From positions 744,001-808,000 of the forward strand of contig NZ_AP024322.1 of assembly GCF_018408855.1 (NCBI RefSeq): a stretch of 64,000 bases of DNA, written 5' to 3'. Shown piece by piece: positions 6,264 through 64,000 of the stretch (position 1 is the stretch's first letter; every line of letters begins with the position of its first letter). Below the pieces are notes generated by a model, which did not search any database, was not told the DNA's origin, and worked only from the letters and a program-made list of their open reading frames with translations. Made by a program: the position numbers and the translations under genes. Origin of the DNA: Caballeronia sp. NK8 (GTDB lineage Bacteria; Pseudomonadota; Gammaproteobacteria; Burkholderiales; Burkholderiaceae).

Positions 6264-9200
6264 TCAACCCGTATTGCGCAATCCCGCCGCAATCCCGTTG
6301 ATCGTCAGGTGAATCCCGCGCCGCAACCGCACGTTCTGATCCCCCGCGCGATGCCGCTTGAGCAACTCGACCTGCAAGTGATTGAGCGGATCGAGATACG
6401 GAAAGCGGTTCTTGATCGAGCGCGCGAGCAGCGGATTGTCCGCGAGACGCTCGCCTTTGCCGGTGATCTCGGCCAGCACGTTCGACGTACGCTCATGCTC
6501 CGCGACGATCTTGTCGAACACGGTCTTGCGCAGCTTCTTGTCGGTGACGAGCTGCGCATAGCGCGACGCCACCGCGAGATCGGTCTTCGCGAGCACCATG
6601 TCCATGTTCGACAGCAGGTTCTTGAAGAACGGCCACGTCTTGTGCATCTTGCGCAGCGTGGCCAGCCGCTTCGCGCGTTCTTCGTCGGAGCCGGCCTTGT
6701 CGAGATAGGCCGTGACCGCGCTGCCGAAGCCGAACCAGCCCGTCAGCAACAAGCGGCACTGACCCCACGAAAAGCCCCACGGAATCGCGCGCAGATCCTC
6801 GATCTTGCGTTGCTTCGGGTCCTGGAGCTTGCGCGACGCCGGCCGGCTGCCGATGTTCAGCTCCGCGATCTCCGAAATCGGCGTCGACAGGAAGAAGTAA
6901 TCGGTGAAGCCGGGCGTCTCGTAGACGAGCGCGCGATACGCGGCCATCGCGGAATCGGACAGGGTCTGCATCGTCGCTTCGAATTGCGGCAACTGCGCGG
7001 GCGCGTTCTCGTGCGGCAGCAGCGATGCTTCGAGCGTCGCGGCGACCACCGTCTCCAGATTGCGCCGGCCGATTTCCGGATTGCCGAACTTGCTCGCGAT
7101 CACTTCGCCCTGCTCGGTCAGACGAATTTGCCCGTCGACGGTGCCGGGCGGCTGCGACAGAATCGCCTGATAGGTCGGGCCGCCGCCGCGTCCGACCGTG
7201 CCGCCCCGGCCATGGAACAGACGCAAGGTCGTGCCGCGTTCGTTGAAGAGCGCGACGAGCGCCAGTTCCGCGCGATACAGCTCCCAGTTCGACGTGAGGA
7301 AACCGCCGTCCTTGTTGCTGTCCGAGTAGCCGAGCATGACTTCCTGCTCGTTGCCCTGATTCTCGATGAGCGCGTCGATGCCCGGCAGCGCGAAGAACTC
7401 GCCCATGATGACGGGCGCATTGCGCAAGTCCGCGATGGTCTCGAAGAGCGGAATGACCATCAGGCCGTCGCGCGGGGAATCGTCCTTGGCGCCGAGACAG
7501 CCTTGCAGCACGCCCGTTTCCTTCTGCAGCAACATCACTTCGAGCAGATCGCTGACGGTTTCCGTGTGCGAGATGATGTAGTTGCGCACCGCGCGCGTGC
7601 CGAACTTCGCGCGCGTTTCGTGGGCGGCTTCGAGCACGCCGAGTTCGCTCTTCGCGAGATCGGAGTATTGCGCGTAGGGAATGCGCAGCGGACGCGGTTG
7701 CGCGAGTTCCTTCAGCAATACCTCGCGCTTCTGCTCCTCGGAAAGCGACGCGTAATCCGCGACGACGCCCGCGCGCGCGAGCAGCTCCGTGACGACCGCC
7801 TCGTGAATGTCCGAACTCTGCCGCAAGTCGATGCTCGCGAGATGGAAGCCGAACACTTCGGCGGCGCGCGCGAGCGGCGACAGACGCAGGATCGACATCG
7901 ACGCGCCATGATGTTCCGCGAGCGAATCGACCAGCACATGCAGGTCGCCCACGAATTCGGCGGCGTCGGCGTAAGGCTTCGCGCGAATCTGCGGCGCGCC
8001 CGGCCCCGCGCTGCGCACCGCGACGACGCCTTCGCCCAGCCGCACGCGCGCGCTCGCCGCGAGCCGCGTGTAAATGCCGATGAGCGCCCGCCGATACGGC
8101 TCGTCGGTGCGATGCGGCGATTGATCCGGCGACGCATCGGCGAGTGCTTTGAGCGCATCGCTCGAACCGGCGAGCAGGTTCGACACGGACAGTTCCGCGC
8201 CGAGCTTGTGCACCTCTTCCAGATAGTGTTCGAAGATCACGATCGCCTGGCGGGTGATCGCGGTTTCGAGCGTCTCGCCGGTGACGAACGGATTGCCGTC
8301 GCGATCGCCGCCGATCCAGCTTCCCATCTGGAAGAACGGCGGCAGGCGCACGGGCAGGCCGTGTTCGGCGAGCGCGCCTTCGATATCGGCATAGAGCGCG
8401 GGAATCTCCGCGAGGAAGGTCGCGCGATAGTAGGACAGCGCGTTGTCGATTTCATCGGTGACGGAAAGGCGCGTGTCGCGCAACATGCGCGTCTGCCACA
8501 GCGAGGTCACGCGCGCGCGCAACACTGCCACGTTCTGCGTGCGTTCGCGGTCGGTCAGTTCCTGATCGCGCTCGGCGAGCAGGCGCGCGATATCGTGCTG
8601 CGCATCGAGGATGCTCTTGCGCGACACTTCGGTCGGATGCGCGGTAAGAACGGGCACGATGAGCGCATCGCCGAAGAACTTGTCCAGCAGCTTGCGCGTG
8701 GAACTGATGTTCTTGTGCTCGCGCATGCGCTCGATCGCATAGGCGATGGTGCCCGGCTGCGAGCCTGAGCCCGCGAGCGCGTGAATGCGGCGGCGGCGAT
8801 TGTGATGGCGGTCTTCCGCGATATTCGCGAGATGCGAGAAGTAGCTGAACGCGCGCACCACGGACACCGTCTGTTCCGGCGACAGCGCGCGCAGCTTTTT
8901 CTCCAGCGCCTGCGCGGCTTCGCTGTCGTCCTCGCGGCGGAATTTCACGGCCGTCTGACGAATGGCTTCGACGACATCGAACACGGCGTCGCCTTCCTGC
9001 TCGCGCAGCACTTCGCCGAGCAGGCGCCCGAGGAAGCGGATGTCCTCGAAGAGCGGGCGGTCCTTGTCGTCGCGCGTGCGGCTGGCGGGCTTCGCGCCGT
9101 TCACGGCCGGCGCTTTCGCTTTGCTCGCCACGCGTTTCGCCGCCGGTTTGATGGCGGGCCTCGGCTTCGGCGCAATGGCCGCTTTCGATGCCTTCGCGGC

Positions 9201-59622: not shown

Positions 59623-59797
59623 GCGGCGCGCAAGAACGCGTCGGAAATTTTTGCCGCGGCGCGTCGACATCGATTTTGTCGACAGCGCCGCGCGGCATTT
59701 CAGAGTCGCCCGCGGGCCTTGATCAAACAAGGATTTATCACCGCGACGCGGGGCCGCAATATATGCAGGTCCGGCCAAATAGCGATATATTCGCGGG

Positions 59798-60496
59798 ATG
59801 ACAAAATCGTGTCCGCCCAATCCTAAAGCCGTTCCCGAGCCCACCACATGGGATGCGCGGCTCGCCCGCCGTCTCGTCACACCGCTCGTCGGCACGCCGG
59901 TAACACCCAACCATCTGACCACGCTGCGCCTCGCCATCGGTGTGGCCGGCGCGTATTATCTGTCGCTCGGTCAGTTCTGGATGTGCACGCTCGGCGCACT
60001 CCTGATCGCACTGTCAAATTTCGTCGATCACACTGATGGCGAACTCGCGCGCATCAGCGGCAAGTCGAGCAAGATCGGGCACTTCTACGACCTCGCGAGC
60101 GACGCGCTCGTGACCGTGCTGCTGTTCCTCGGCCTCGGGTTCTATGTCGCCGTGCATCATCCGTCGATCATCGTCCCCGCGCAGTGGCTCGGCGGCATCG
60201 CGGGCGTGGCGGTTGCGCTGATTTTCTTCCTGCGCATGCGCGTCGAGTCGATGGTCGGCAAGTCGGGCACGAAGCAGGCGTCGATGGCCGGCTTCGAAAC
60301 GGAAGACGTGCTGTATCTGGTGCCGGTGGTGACTATCCTGAACGGCATGACGCCGTTTCTGATCGCGGCGGCGATCGGCGCGCCGCTCTTCGCCATTTAC
60401 GTGGCGGTCGACTATCGGCGCGTCGTGCGGCGGTTGAAGCGGCACGCGCAAGCGTCGCATGCAAAAGACGGTAATGATCTACAGGCGGTGAGATGA
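59798..60496 (+). CDS. CDP-alcohol phosphatidyltransferase family protein
   Basis: A 232-residue membrane enzyme with 5-6 helices and an intact catalytic motif D-x2-DG-x2-AR-x8-G-x3-D-x3-D: DHTDGELARI, then GHFYDLASD. Family members displace CMP from a CDP-linked substrate with a lipid or polyol alcohol. Because the next genes make and activate a phosphonate, I infer it transfers a CMP-activated phosphonate to an alcohol such as diacylglycerol, giving a phosphonolipid. An ordinary phospholipid role is the alternative. ATG 59798; its stop overlaps the next start as ATGA. Confidence 0.88.
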   Translation: MTKSCPPNPKAVPEPTTWDARLARRLVTPLVGTPVTPNHLTTLRLAIGVAGAYYLSLGQFWMCTLGALLIALSNFVDHTDGELARISGKSSKIGHFYDLASDALVTVLLFLGLGFYVAVHHPSIIVPAQWLGGIAGVAVALIFFLRMRVESMVGKSGTKQASMAGFETEDVLYLVPVVTILNGMTPFLIAAAIGAPLFAIYVAVDYRRVVRRLKRHAQASHAKDGNDLQAVR

Positions 60497-61305
60497 GCGA
60501 TACGGCAACTCCGGACAACACGCTGACCCGGCCGGCGCAAACGGCAACGGGCGCGGGCCCGTCGACGCGCGACATCGATTCGACCCTGAACACGCGCCTC
60601 GCCGCGCTGCACACGCCGAAGCTGCGCGACGACTACGGCCAGCAAGGTTCGTTTCTCTATATAGAGGACTTCCTGCCGCGCGATTACACCGAGCGCCTGA
60701 TCGCCGCCGTGCACGACGTGATGCCAGCCGTGAACCGCAATTATCTGCCGGGCCACAAGGCGGGCGGCAGCGTCAGCCGCCATACGCTCGACAAGCTCGC
60801 GCCGTTCATCGCGGATTTGTACCGCTCCGAAGCGCTCATCAAGTGGCTGGAGACGATTACCGGCGACAAGCTGCAACTCTCGCCCGAAGACGATCCGCAC
60901 GCCTACGCGCTGTATTTCTACACGCGCCCGGGCGATCACATCGGCTGGCACTACGACACGTCGTATTACGAAGGCCGCCGCTATACGCTCCTGCTCGGCG
61001 TGATCGACGATTCCTCCTGCCGGCTCGATTACGAGCTGCACACCAAAACGCCCGGCATTCCGGATCAGCCGGGTTCGGTGCAATATCCGCCGGGCGCATT
61101 CGTGTTCTTCGACGGCGACAAGCTGCGCCATCGCATCACGCCGCTCGGCGAGAACGAGATGCGCGTGTCGCTCACGTTCGAGTACGTGACCAACCCCAAC
61201 ATGCGGCCGTTCCAGCGCTTCATTTCGAACATGAAGGACTCGATCGCGTATTTCGGTTTCAGGCAGGTCTTTCGCCGCAAAAGCGGCAAGACCGGACAGG
61301 CATGA
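60493..61305 (+). CDS. 2-oxoglutarate/Fe(II)-dependent oxygenase in the phosphonate operon
   Basis: A 270-residue prolyl-4-hydroxylase-like dioxygenase. The iron ligands are HxD in GWHYDTSYYEGR and the distal His in KLRHRITPLGENEMRVSL, and the 2-oxoglutarate-binding Arg is in MRVSLTFEY. A 45-residue Thr/Ala-rich N-terminus precedes the domain. Oxygenases of this class hydroxylate unactivated carbons. In this operon the natural target is the phosphonate or the lipid it sits on, for instance 1-hydroxylation of 2-aminoethylphosphonate. It overlaps both neighbours by ATGA. Confidence 0.88.
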   Translation: MSDTATPDNTLTRPAQTATGAGPSTRDIDSTLNTRLAALHTPKLRDDYGQQGSFLYIEDFLPRDYTERLIAAVHDVMPAVNRNYLPGHKAGGSVSRHTLDKLAPFIADLYRSEALIKWLETITGDKLQLSPEDDPHAYALYFYTRPGDHIGWHYDTSYYEGRRYTLLLGVIDDSSCRLDYELHTKTPGIPDQPGSVQYPPGAFVFFDGDKLRHRITPLGENEMRVSLTFEYVTNPNMRPFQRFISNMKDSIAYFGFRQVFRRKSGKTGQA

Positions 61306-62318
61306 GCCGCGCGGGCACATTTCTGCTGTCCGTCGGCGTGGTGCTGTTCATCGCGCTGCTCGGCTGGCAAGGCTTCGGTTCGGTCGCATCGACGCTGGCC
61401 GCGGCCGGCTGGGGTCTGCTCGCGGTCGCGGCCTTTCACTTCGTGCCGCTTTTGATCGACGCCGGCGCAATCAGCGTGCTGTTCTCGCACAAGGAGCGCG
61501 ACGTTTCCCTGCGCGACGCCTTGCTCGCACGCTGGGCCGGCGAATCCGTAAACAGCCTGATGCCCGCCGGCCAGATCGGCGGGCCGATGCTGATGGTCCG
61601 CTACCTTGCGCAGCGCGGCATGCGCGCGCGCGACGCCGCCGCCGTCATCACCGTCAGCACGACGATGCAGACCGTCGCGCAACTGATCTTCGCGCTGATC
61701 GGCGTCGTGCTCCTGACGGGTTATGTCGGGGGCGGTTCGTCGTCGACCGTGACGATCGCCGTGCTGGCGGTGATCGGCGTGATCGGCGTGATGATCTTCG
61801 GTTTCTATCTGGCGCAGCGGCGCGGTCTGTTTGGCCGCGCGATGCGCTTCGCGTCCGGCATCGCGGCGAAATTCTCGGCGAAGCGCGACTGGTCGTCGCT
61901 CGTCACGCGCGCCGAAGCCGTCGATGCCGCCGTGCACGAGATGTATCGCGAGCGCGGCAAGGTCGCGGCGAGCTTCGGCCTGAGTCTGGTTGGCTGGATC
62001 GTCGGCACGGGCGAGGTGTGGCTCGCGCTGCATCTGCTCGGCCATCCGGTCGGCTGGGCGGAAGCGCTGTTGCTCGAAAGCCTCGGCCAGGCGATTCGCG
62101 GCGCCGCGTTCGCCATTCCCGGCTCGCTCGGCGTGCAGGAAGGCGGCTATCTGCTGCTCGCGCGTCTGGTCGGCCTGCCGCCCGAGGCGGCGCTTGCGCT
62201 GTCGCTCGCCAAGCGCGCGCGGGAACTGCTGCTCGGCGTGCCGGGCATCGTCTATCTGCATTTCGTTGAAAAAGGCTGGCAGCGCCGCCGTCTCGCGCGC
62301 GTGCCGGACATCGACTGA
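61302..62318 (+). CDS. flippase-like integral membrane protein (UPF0104/HpnL/MprF-N-terminal family)
   Basis: A 338-residue, 8-9-helix membrane protein of the lysylphosphatidylglycerol-synthase transmembrane superfamily. RWAGESVNSLMPAGQIGGPMLMVRYL and RGAAFAIPGSLGVQEGGYLLLARLVGLPPE are the family's paired signature motifs. Relatives flip or present modified lipids (MprF N-terminal half, HpnL in hopanoid clusters). Here it is the likely transporter of the phosphonolipid. The start ATG 61302 overlaps the oxygenase stop as ATGA. Confidence 0.85.
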   Translation: MSRAGTFLLSVGVVLFIALLGWQGFGSVASTLAAAGWGLLAVAAFHFVPLLIDAGAISVLFSHKERDVSLRDALLARWAGESVNSLMPAGQIGGPMLMVRYLAQRGMRARDAAAVITVSTTMQTVAQLIFALIGVVLLTGYVGGGSSSTVTIAVLAVIGVIGVMIFGFYLAQRRGLFGRAMRFASGIAAKFSAKRDWSSLVTRAEAVDAAVHEMYRERGKVAASFGLSLVGWIVGTGEVWLALHLLGHPVGWAEALLLESLGQAIRGAAFAIPGSLGVQEGGYLLLARLVGLPPEAALALSLAKRARELLLGVPGIVYLHFVEKGWQRRRLARVPDID

Positions 62319-62342
62319 CCCACCCACGAAGGGAAAACAAGC

Positions 62343-63131
62343 ATGCGCGCAATTATTCTTGCGGCCGGGATGGGCTTGCGCCTCGTTCAGCCCGAAGGCC
62401 AGCAAAAGCCGAAGTGTCTGCTGCGGTTTGGTGATGCATCGCTGCTGGAGCGTCATCTGCACTTTTTGAAAGCCGCGAGTGTCGATGAAGTCGTCTTCGT
62501 GACCGGCTTCAAGAGCGAGCAGATCGAGGCGGAACTCGCATCGATCGACTGGAAGCCGAAGACCGAAATCGTCGTCAACGACGAATTCACGCTCGGCAGC
62601 GTGCTGTCGGTGCACACCGCGCGCGACGCGATGACGCGCGGCGGCGACGTTCTGCTGATGGACGCCGACGTGCTCTACGACGAACGCATTTTCGAGCCGC
62701 TCGTCGCGGGCGGCCCGGTGAATCGCCTGTTGATCGACCGCGATTTCGAAGCGGGCGACGAACCCGTGAAGCTGTGCGTCGACAATGGCGTGCCGGTCGA
62801 GCTGCGCAAGCAGGTCGCGGCGGGCCTGAAGTACGACACGATCGGCGAATCGGTCGGCTTTTTCCGCTTCGATCAGGCGACGGCCACGCGTCTCGCCGAA
62901 ATCTGCGCGGACTATGTCGCGACCGGCCGCGCGAAGATGCCGCACGAAGAAGCGGTGCGCGACCTGTTGCTGGAGAATGTGCAAAACCCGTCCCACGTGT
63001 TCGATATCGCCGACGTGACCGGCGCACCGTGGATCGAAATCGATTTTCAGAACGACGTGAAGCGCGCGGCCGACGAAGTGCTGCCGCAATTGAACGCGCT
63101 GAGTCAGTTTGCAGGAGCATCACAACAATGA
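62343..63131 (+). CDS. NTP-transferase-fold cytidylyltransferase (PntC-like)
   Basis: A 262-residue Rossmann-like nucleotidyltransferase. The N-terminal signature is [13 protein letters not shown], followed by [21 protein letters not shown], and the metal-binding Asp pair in [14 protein letters not shown]. In phosphonate clusters, enzymes of this fold (PntC) make CMP-2-aminoethylphosphonate from CTP. It lies 24 bases after the flippase gene and its stop overlaps the PEP mutase start (ATGA). CTP and the phosphonate as substrates are inferred from context; sugar-1-phosphate activity is the alternative. Confidence 0.85.
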
Positions 63132-64000
63132 ACGCACCCGGAAACATTCCCGTCGGCTATTCGCGCACCATGCGTCTGCGCGAGATGCTGCAAAGCAATC
63201 GCCTCGAATTCCTGATGGAAGCGCACAACGGCATTTCGGCGCGCATCGCGAAGGAAGCGGGCTTCAAGGCGATCTGGGGCTCCGGCCTGTCGATTTCCGC
63301 GCAGTTCGGCGTACGCGACAACAACGAAGCGAGCTGGACGCAGGTCGTCGACAACCTCGAATTCATGGCCGACGCGAGCGATCTGCCGATCCTGCTCGAC
63401 GGCGACACGGGCTACGGCAACTTCAACAACGTGCGCCGGCTCGTGAAGAAGCTGGAGCAGCGCGGCATCGCGGGCGTGTGCATCGAGGACAAGCAGTTTC
63501 CGAAGACCAACAGCTTCATCAACGGCGAGGCGCAGCCGCTTGCCGACATCGACGAGTTCTGCGGCAAGATCAAGGCCGGCAAGGATTCGCAGAGCGATCC
63601 GAACTTTTCGATCGTCGCGCGCGTGGAAGCGCTGATCGCGGGCTGGGGTATGGAAGAAGCGCTCAAGCGCGCCGAGGCGTATCGCCGGGCGGGCGCGGAC
63701 GCGATCCTGATCCACAGCAAGCTCTCGAAGCCCGACGAGATCCTGACGTTCGCACGCGAGTGGGCCGGTCGCGGTCCGCTCGTCATCGTGCCGACGAAGT
63801 ACTACAGCACGCCGACCGACGCGTTCCGTCAGGCCGGCATCAGCTGCGTGATCTGGGCGAACCATCTGATTCGCGGCGCGGTCTCCGCGATGCAGGCGAT
63901 CGCGAAGGAAATCCACGACAGCGAGACGCTCGTGAACGTGGAAGACCGCATCGCCTCGGTGAATGAGATCTTCCGTCTGCAGGACGCGGACGAGTACTCG
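63128..64000 (+). CDS. aepX: phosphoenolpyruvate mutase (partial, continues past window)
   Basis: The first 291 codons; the frame runs off the window. PEP mutase rearranges PEP to phosphonopyruvate, the entry step to almost all natural C-P compounds. The ICL/PEPM fold shows [24 protein letters not shown] with metal-binding Asp residues and the diagnostic PEP-mutase loop [11 protein letters not shown] (ED-K...NS), which separates true mutases from isocitrate lyases. [33 protein letters not shown] follows (in parts). Phosphonopyruvate decarboxylase and an aminotransferase are expected just downstream. Confidence 0.95.

Follow-up and report, generated by a model that had tools for sequence, protein, structure and literature searches.

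The window analysed here, 64,000 nucleotides of the soil bacterium Caballeronia sp. NK8 (744001-808000 of contig C1 in a 9.2-Mb genome), ends inside an operon that is predicted to make a phosphonate-bearing membrane lipid. The initial annotation had described five co-directional genes with three ATGA stop/start overlaps and one 24-base gap at the window edge. The coordinates agree: the overlaps lie at 60493, 61302 and 63128, and the single gap between 62318 and 62343. The operon is longer than five genes, since the fifth gene, encoding phosphoenolpyruvate (PEP) mutase (Ppm), runs past the window edge and is followed by two more, for phosphonopyruvate decarboxylase (Ppd) and 2-aminoethylphosphonate (AEP) aminotransferase (AEPT), giving seven in total. 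The main features are as follows, where NTP stands for nucleoside triphosphate.

59798..60496, + strand: CDP-alcohol phosphotransferase (CDPOH), 232 residues; PF01066, 47.3 bits (cut-off 22)
60026..60103, + strand: complete CDP-alcohol motif DxxDGxxAR-x8-GxxxDxxxD (DHTDGELARISGKSSKIGHFYDLASD), located in the sequence by regular expression
60493..61305, + strand: Fe(II)/2-oxoglutarate oxygenase (OXY) of the HalD/BesD fold family, 270 residues; PF23169, 39.3 bits (cut-off 26)
60949..60957, + strand: HxD iron-binding motif (H153-Y-D155), from the homologue alignment
61302..62318, + strand: HpnL-family membrane protein (UPF0104/flippase-like), 338 residues; TIGR03476, 350.5 bits (cut-off 195.65)
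62343..63131, + strand: stand-alone NTP transferase (NTP1), proposed PntC-like AEP cytidylyltransferase; PF12804 (NTP_transf_3), 48 bits (cut-off 27)
62367..62414, + strand: NTP-binding loop of NTP1, G9-M-G-L-R13...P23-K24, with Arg and Lys retained
63128..64000 and on to window-equivalent 64825 (7128-8825 of the extended locus L011), + strand: Ppm, N-terminal half of a 565-residue fusion with NTP2; TIGR02320, 405 bits (cut-off 319.55)
63485..63517, + strand: PEP mutase motif of the EDKxxxxxNS type, read in the sequence
8028-8822 of L011: NTP2, the nucleotidyltransferase domain fused to Ppm, without the NTP-loop Arg

Chance or artefactual reading frames are ruled out by these family matches, by the conserved overlaps (the oxygenase and HpnL genes stand at -4 in 75 of 75 measured relatives) and by ratios of nonsynonymous to synonymous substitution rates of 0.045-0.218 across 23 comparisons.

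The last three genes encode a complete predicted route to AEP. Ppm, already recognised in the initial annotation, displays both marks of a PEP mutase, the family score and the EDKxxxxxNS motif; the motif is present in the consensus of the fusions of 65 relatives and the window, Q being the sole position below 95%. It had also been proposed that a decarboxylase and an aminotransferase be sought past position 64000, and both were found there: Ppd directly after Ppm (TIGR03297, 452 bits, cut-off 312.5) and AEPT after Ppd (TIGR03301, 388 bits, cut-off 360.8). No other AEPT over the family cut-off was found in the window's own genome. Ten related loci have no AEPT beside Ppd (L043-L047, L051-L053, L060 and L084). 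A different end product in these loci is countered by an AEPT over the cut-off elsewhere in 10/10 of the genomes, which could nevertheless be a catabolic one.

We propose that the operon directs synthesis of a phosphonate lipid through NTP1 and CDPOH, and give this core reading, irrespective of the acceptor, a probability of roughly 0.78. Genes, motifs, co-inheritance and, in some relatives, a clustering with hopanoid genes are seen directly in the DNA; from these we infer the substrates, the acceptor and any flipping. Ppm would convert PEP to phosphonopyruvate, Ppd would turn this into phosphonoacetaldehyde, and AEPT would aminate the latter to AEP. NTP1, rather than the domain fused to Ppm, would then make CMP-AEP, and the CDP-alcohol phosphotransferase would pass its AEP moiety on to a hydroxyl group of a lipid. 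Hydroxylation of the head group or the product would fall to the oxygenase, with 1-hydroxy-AEP as the favoured outcome, and the HpnL protein would handle or flip the finished lipid. The product is best read as a membrane lipid bearing AEP or hydroxy-AEP; its lipid part may be a hopanoid, the bacterial equivalent of cholesterol.

The choice of NTP1 as the activating enzyme comes from a comparison of the two nucleotidyltransferases. As the initial annotation had suggested from its fold, NTP1 resembles PntC: its best match among solved structures by profile is the AEP-specific PntC 6pd1 (Tde-PntC, E 5.8e-12). R13, K24 and K156 of NTP1 align with R15, K25 and K153 of Tde-PntC (positions counted by hand in the profile alignment), and Ala mutants of these three Tde-PntC residues keep less than 10% of the activity (PMC6697681). 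Among 22 sequences R13 is invariant and K24 is conserved in at least 90%. The loop Arg of the stand-alone enzyme was present in 80/80 readable sequences (of 81) from Burkholderiaceae and, in a second family described below, in 17/22 by script and three more by eye (L220, L221, L227), two remaining unread. In contrast, the Ppm-fused domain is without the catalytic loop Arg in 93/93 readable sequences of 94 (64 of 65 from Burkholderiaceae, 22 from the second family and 7 others), and likewise in the window's own fusion. Since NTP1 keeps the catalytic residues while the fused domain has no such Arg, we infer that NTP1 would be the enzyme activating AEP with CMP, some activity of the fused domain being possible. 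The absence of this Arg also casts doubt on reading a Ppm fusion alone as a sign of CMP activation.

Several observations weigh against this assignment. The fused loops of Burkholderiaceae hold an Arg elsewhere in the loop (SRGxG), and the single-sequence match to LicC is better for the fused domain (E 9e-14) than for NTP1 (8e-7). NTP1 departs from the exact consensus GXG(T/S)RX4-8PK, reading GMGLR with Leu at the T/S position and nine residues before PK, and it has Asp at the position of Tde-PntC Glu104, as LicC does. Moreover, a Foldseek search with the NTP1 model (predicted local distance difference test, pLDDT, 75) ranks an inositol-phosphate cytidylyltransferase first, with PntC close behind. 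NTP1 may work like a PntC, and by the strict consensus it is a candidate member of that group.

CDPOH belongs to the CDP-alcohol phosphotransferases on two counts, the PF01066 match and the full motif, which the initial annotation had correctly called complete. The same motif was found by regular expression in 14/14 CDPOH genes of the second family. By sequence, the nearest solved relatives of CDPOH are AF2299 and IPCT-DIPPS. This integral, lipid-type enzyme speaks against a phosphonate that decorates a surface glycan, the role suggested for clusters of the LicD type in oral anaerobes. Phosphonoglycans or phosphonolipids are indeed the predicted products of most bacterial Ppm clusters (PMC6697681), but here the CDP-alcohol enzyme stands in place of a glycosyltransferase or LicD-like gene, neither of which occurs among the seven operon genes, and we regard a phosphonoglycan as very improbable.

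The third protein had been called a UPF0104/MprF-like flippase. A flippase-like protein is present, and its affiliation can be made more precise: it exceeds the curated cut-off of TIGR03476 and falls within the hopanoid-associated HpnL family, the function of which is not established (PMC12583986). The window's genome has a second HpnL, sitting between hpnI and hpnJ and sharing 32% identity with the one in the operon.

The identification of the second protein as a 2-oxoglutarate oxygenase also holds. It shares PF23169 and the fold family with the HalD/BesD radical halogenases and is 98% identical to an oxygenase of Caballeronia pedi. H153, D155, H213 and R224 are invariant across 22 homologues, whereas HalD has Gly at the position of D155 (HWG); the Gly-for-Asp replacement of a halogenase is absent from the window oxygenase. 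Because HxD is kept where HalD has HxG, hydroxylation rather than chlorination is expected, and the enzyme is probably a hydroxylase and not a halogenase; halogenation is made unlikely by this motif. Public records call relatives of the window oxygenase 'HalD/BesD family halogenase' despite the hydroxylase-type HxD, and this label is probably misleading. In fold, the model comes nearest to HalD, and a BesD-like hydroxylase whose structure contains lysine is also close. Since these fold relatives act on free amino acids and their structures hold lysine or ornithine, the comparison favours the small amine AEP, or an AEP ester, over an acyl chain as the substrate. Against this stands the quality of the model (pLDDT 60), too weak for pocket analysis.

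Conservation of the operon was assayed on the best 80 of 325 oxygenase relatives in named genomes. The gene order CDPOH-OXY-HPNL-NTP1 was observed in 80/80 loci, with NTP1 always accompanied by CDPOH. The five-gene order that the initial annotation had put forward for comparison was thus fixed in its first four genes; 38 of the 80 loci run on into Ppm-NTP2 and Ppd, while 42 stop earlier, one of them (L042) on a 3.3-kb contig. The other 41 loci, mostly named Paraburkholderia, hold the module without Ppm and might hint at a different head group. This was rejected in view of a true Ppm elsewhere in 39/41 of these genomes, the exceptions being those of L085 and L090; control genomes for the Ppm search had a true Ppm in 4/4 cases. 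In 10/10 split genomes examined, Ppm-NTP2, Ppd and AEPT stood together at the second site. A second NTP1 was seen beside Ppm in L134 (2215-2979) and L141 (8095-8835), and both genomes keep the module NTP1 (L101, L059); the extra copies are perhaps relics of the operon split.

The co-inheritance of module and mutase was then assayed in 200 genomes of the window's family, with the oxygenase alone searched as a proxy for the four-gene module. The oxygenase was found in 113 genomes and a true Ppm in 111. Both were present in 110, the oxygenase only in 3, Ppm only in 1, and neither in 86. The two genes lie no more than 6 kb apart in 92 of the 110 genomes and are not adjacent in 18, and their joint retention at separate sites is best explained by a functional tie. 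Some caution applies to these numbers. All but one of the 18 non-adjacent genomes come from a single genus (g5), 17 cases that perhaps reflect one event, and in the remaining genome (G611) each of the two genes is close to a contig end. In addition, the counts are inflated by kinship and by the small size of many genomes with neither gene, so that the 200 genomes are not independent trials. Two of the oxygenase-only genomes carry a damaged gene, with stops in G605 and a fragment in G575. Decay of the oxygenase after loss of Ppm is only a possibility, and a stop or frame break was also seen in the oxygenase match of four Ppm-bearing genomes (G531, G617, G621, G628). The Ppm-only genome, G449, has a 302-residue frame, hence an unfused mutase.

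These distributions bear on another reading, in which NTP1 and CDPOH act on a different phospho-alcohol, for example inositol phosphate, their common promoter with the AEP genes is accidental, and AEP is activated by the fused domain. NTP1 and CDPOH do match the two halves of an IPCT-DIPPS type enzyme, the fused domain has the better LicC match, and 41 loci hold the four-gene module away from Ppm. However, in almost all of these 41 cases the genome has a true Ppm at another site, both genes occur in 110 of the 114 genomes having either one, and the catalytic Arg is absent from the fused domain. We consider this explanation most unlikely.

The acceptor of the AEP group was approached through the distribution of hopanoid genes. 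A squalene-hopene cyclase (SHC) match was obtained in 138/200 family genomes, 136 of them over the cut-off; judged by E-value, the two that fall below it are G448 and the oxygenase-bearing G587. Every one of the 113 oxygenase genomes gave an SHC match, and none of the 62 SHC-less genomes has the oxygenase. A cyclase position was listed for 107 of the 110 genomes with both oxygenase and Ppm. In 23 of these 107, SHC lies on the same contig as Ppm at a distance of 14-21 kb; the 23 come from three genera (18 in g4, 3 in g223 and 2 in g218). The linked gene order, read in one genome per genus, is operon-DXS-HpnN-HpnM-HpnH-HpnA-HpnB-HpnG-SHC and HpnD. The hpn families were confirmed in G572 only, where HpnE is found too; the name HpnM is our reading, with no family match at 1e-30, and HpnG is just under its cut-off. 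The gene for DXS, 1-deoxy-xylulose-5-phosphate synthase, adjoins the phosphonate genes in four hopanoid-linked loci (L199, 14396-16300; L201, 12938-14806; L213, 11175-13010; L224, 5587-7461), beginning about 21 nt after AEPT in L199.

Other observations weigh against a hopanoid link. An SHC match without the oxygenase was found in 25 genomes, and in 84 of the 107 placed genomes the operon is not within 25 kb of SHC on one contig. The window's genome is itself unlinked, with the operon on contig C1, SHC on C2 and hpnI-L-J on C3.

A second lineage provides a further comparison. In a sample of 398 genomes of the phylum, a true Ppm was found in 19, of which 14 lie outside the window's family. The 15 Ppm loci of these other families showed no oxygenase relative, CDPOH once and weakly (L174), and HpnL once at 27% identity (L179). 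The oxygenase itself matched in 7/398 genomes of this phylum-wide search, 5 of them strongly and all 5 in the window's family; a wider spread within the phylum was dismissed on this basis. One genome of the sample, G345, led to the second family, of which 200 genomes were searched. We take it to be Acetobacteraceae, because the 120 listed of 304 homologues of one of its CDPOH proteins include entries named Roseomonas, Muricoccus, Belnapia and Roseicella.

A true Ppm was found in 23/200 of these genomes. NTP1 was found within 5 kb of Ppm in all 23 loci; CDPOH was present in 14 and a close HpnL in 14. No oxygenase relative was detected in the 23 loci, and the oxygenase therefore seems to have been added to a core that lacks it. 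The flanks of 8/23 loci contain hpn genes (G645, G642, G744, G795, G739, G798, G804, G808): 8/14 of the loci with CDPOH and 0/9 of those without, several of the 23 contigs being short. Weak HPNJ-like radical SAM matches (21-27%) and a 30% DXS match were excluded from this count. In G804, HpnM-HpnN-DXS stand on one side of the phosphonate genes and HpnH-HpnG-SHC on the other; the gene order in the second family is unlike that of Burkholderiaceae. Chance proximity to hpn genes would be below 1% per locus (about 40 kb in a 5-Mb genome, by simple arithmetic that ignores shared ancestry). A general link between Ppm and hopanoids was rejected: of the 14 Ppm genomes that the phylum sample contains from other families, only 3 have SHC over the cut-off, each time on a contig other than Ppm's, and the CDPOH-less loci of the second family have no hpn genes.

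Altogether, the gene context suggests hopanoids at least as much as a glycerolipid acceptor. The principal alternative acceptor is diacylglycerol, used in a Kennedy-type route to diacylglyceryl-AEP (or its hydroxy-AEP form), with the proximity to hopanoid genes reflecting shared envelope biology. Diacylglycerol is the usual acceptor for those PF01066 enzymes that act on lipids, and choline/ethanolamine phosphotransferases are among the PDB matches of CDPOH, weak as these are (E 0.02-0.11). DAG, alkyl-acylglycerol and HAEP also figure among the abbreviations of a paper on a related cluster (PMC5987646). By itself, however, this route leaves unexplained the HpnL gene in the operon, the SHC pattern across oxygenase genomes and SHC-free genomes, and the hopanoid neighbours in two families. 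We consider diacylglycerol a real possibility, at odds clearly short of even, and slightly favour a hopanoid polyol, itself a tentative choice. On this latter proposal, which we would still put somewhat below an even chance, the products could be phosphonohopanoids, with AEP (or, in genomes with the oxygenase, 1-hydroxy-AEP) as a phosphonate ester on bacteriohopanepolyol and HpnL as the lipid-moving partner. For bacteriohopanetetrol, the computed [M+H]+ is 654.4857 with AEP and 670.4806 with hydroxy-AEP; the corresponding mass of 16:0/16:0 diacylglyceryl-AEP is 676.5276.

The surroundings of the operon were also inspected. One further feature was noted upstream:

59624..59643, + strand: terminator-like hairpin 3' of a DUF4136 gene (consensus match only)

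The hairpin scan gave 2 sites in 401 bases on both strands, where shuffled sequences lead one to expect 0.4. The hairpin after the DUF4136 gene may separate that gene from the operon. A promoter scan found none (0.1 expected). Beyond AEPT, the extended locus continues with a guanine deaminase gene on the opposite strand.

If the core reading is true, 110/200 sampled genomes of the window's family would be able to make a phosphonate lipid. Should the acceptor prove to be a hopanoid, the C-P-bonded products would constitute a new lipid class, made in at least Burkholderiaceae and, by extension, Acetobacteraceae; the orphan family HpnL would gain a role, and geochemists a new biomarker mass.

The initial annotation did not recognise this gene combination as characterised in Burkholderiaceae, a view that has to be revised. 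A 2018 study predicted phosphonolipid synthesis from a gene set of a lichen Nostoc and, adapting Yu et al. 2013, set beside it a homologous cluster of Burkholderia; its Fig. 7 legend names a CDP-alcohol transferase, an OG-Fe(II) oxidase, an NTP transferase, pepM, ppd, AEPT and hpnL (PMC5987646). All the genes named in that legend are found in the seven-gene operon, the legend being what was compared. A hopanoid acceptor and a test of co-inheritance are absent from the parts of that paper considered here. In several Roseomonas, a hopene cyclase is linked to PEP mutase, and an undiscovered terpene-phosphonate was suggested (PMC8776678). The linkage of Ppm to hopene cyclase is common to both systems, but the Roseomonas clusters belong to Acetobacteraceae rather than Burkholderiaceae, and the portions of text consulted make no mention of a CDP-alcohol enzyme, NTP1 or HpnL. 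A further report concerns a different Burkholderia phosphonate (PMC12871164). Among the papers listed in searches of the open-access literature, mostly at the level of titles and abstracts, none linked the Burkholderia cluster to hopanoids and none described a measured phosphonolipid of Burkholderiaceae.

Finally, the PntC cytidylyltransferases of Rice et al. 2019 (PMC6697681), of which one stand-alone enzyme and one fused to AEPT were assayed, are like NTP1 in fold and in the Arg/Lys/Lys residues, and some of their clusters likewise hold both a Ppm-fused and a separate nucleotidyltransferase. The neighbourhoods differ: LicD-like or glycosyltransferase genes accompany PntC there, whereas a CDP-alcohol phosphotransferase, HpnL and an oxygenase do so here. 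The locus is a member of an already predicted cluster type, to which the present analysis adds the joint inheritance of module and mutase, the preference for NTP1, the HxD motif of the oxygenase and, above all, the hopanoid context.

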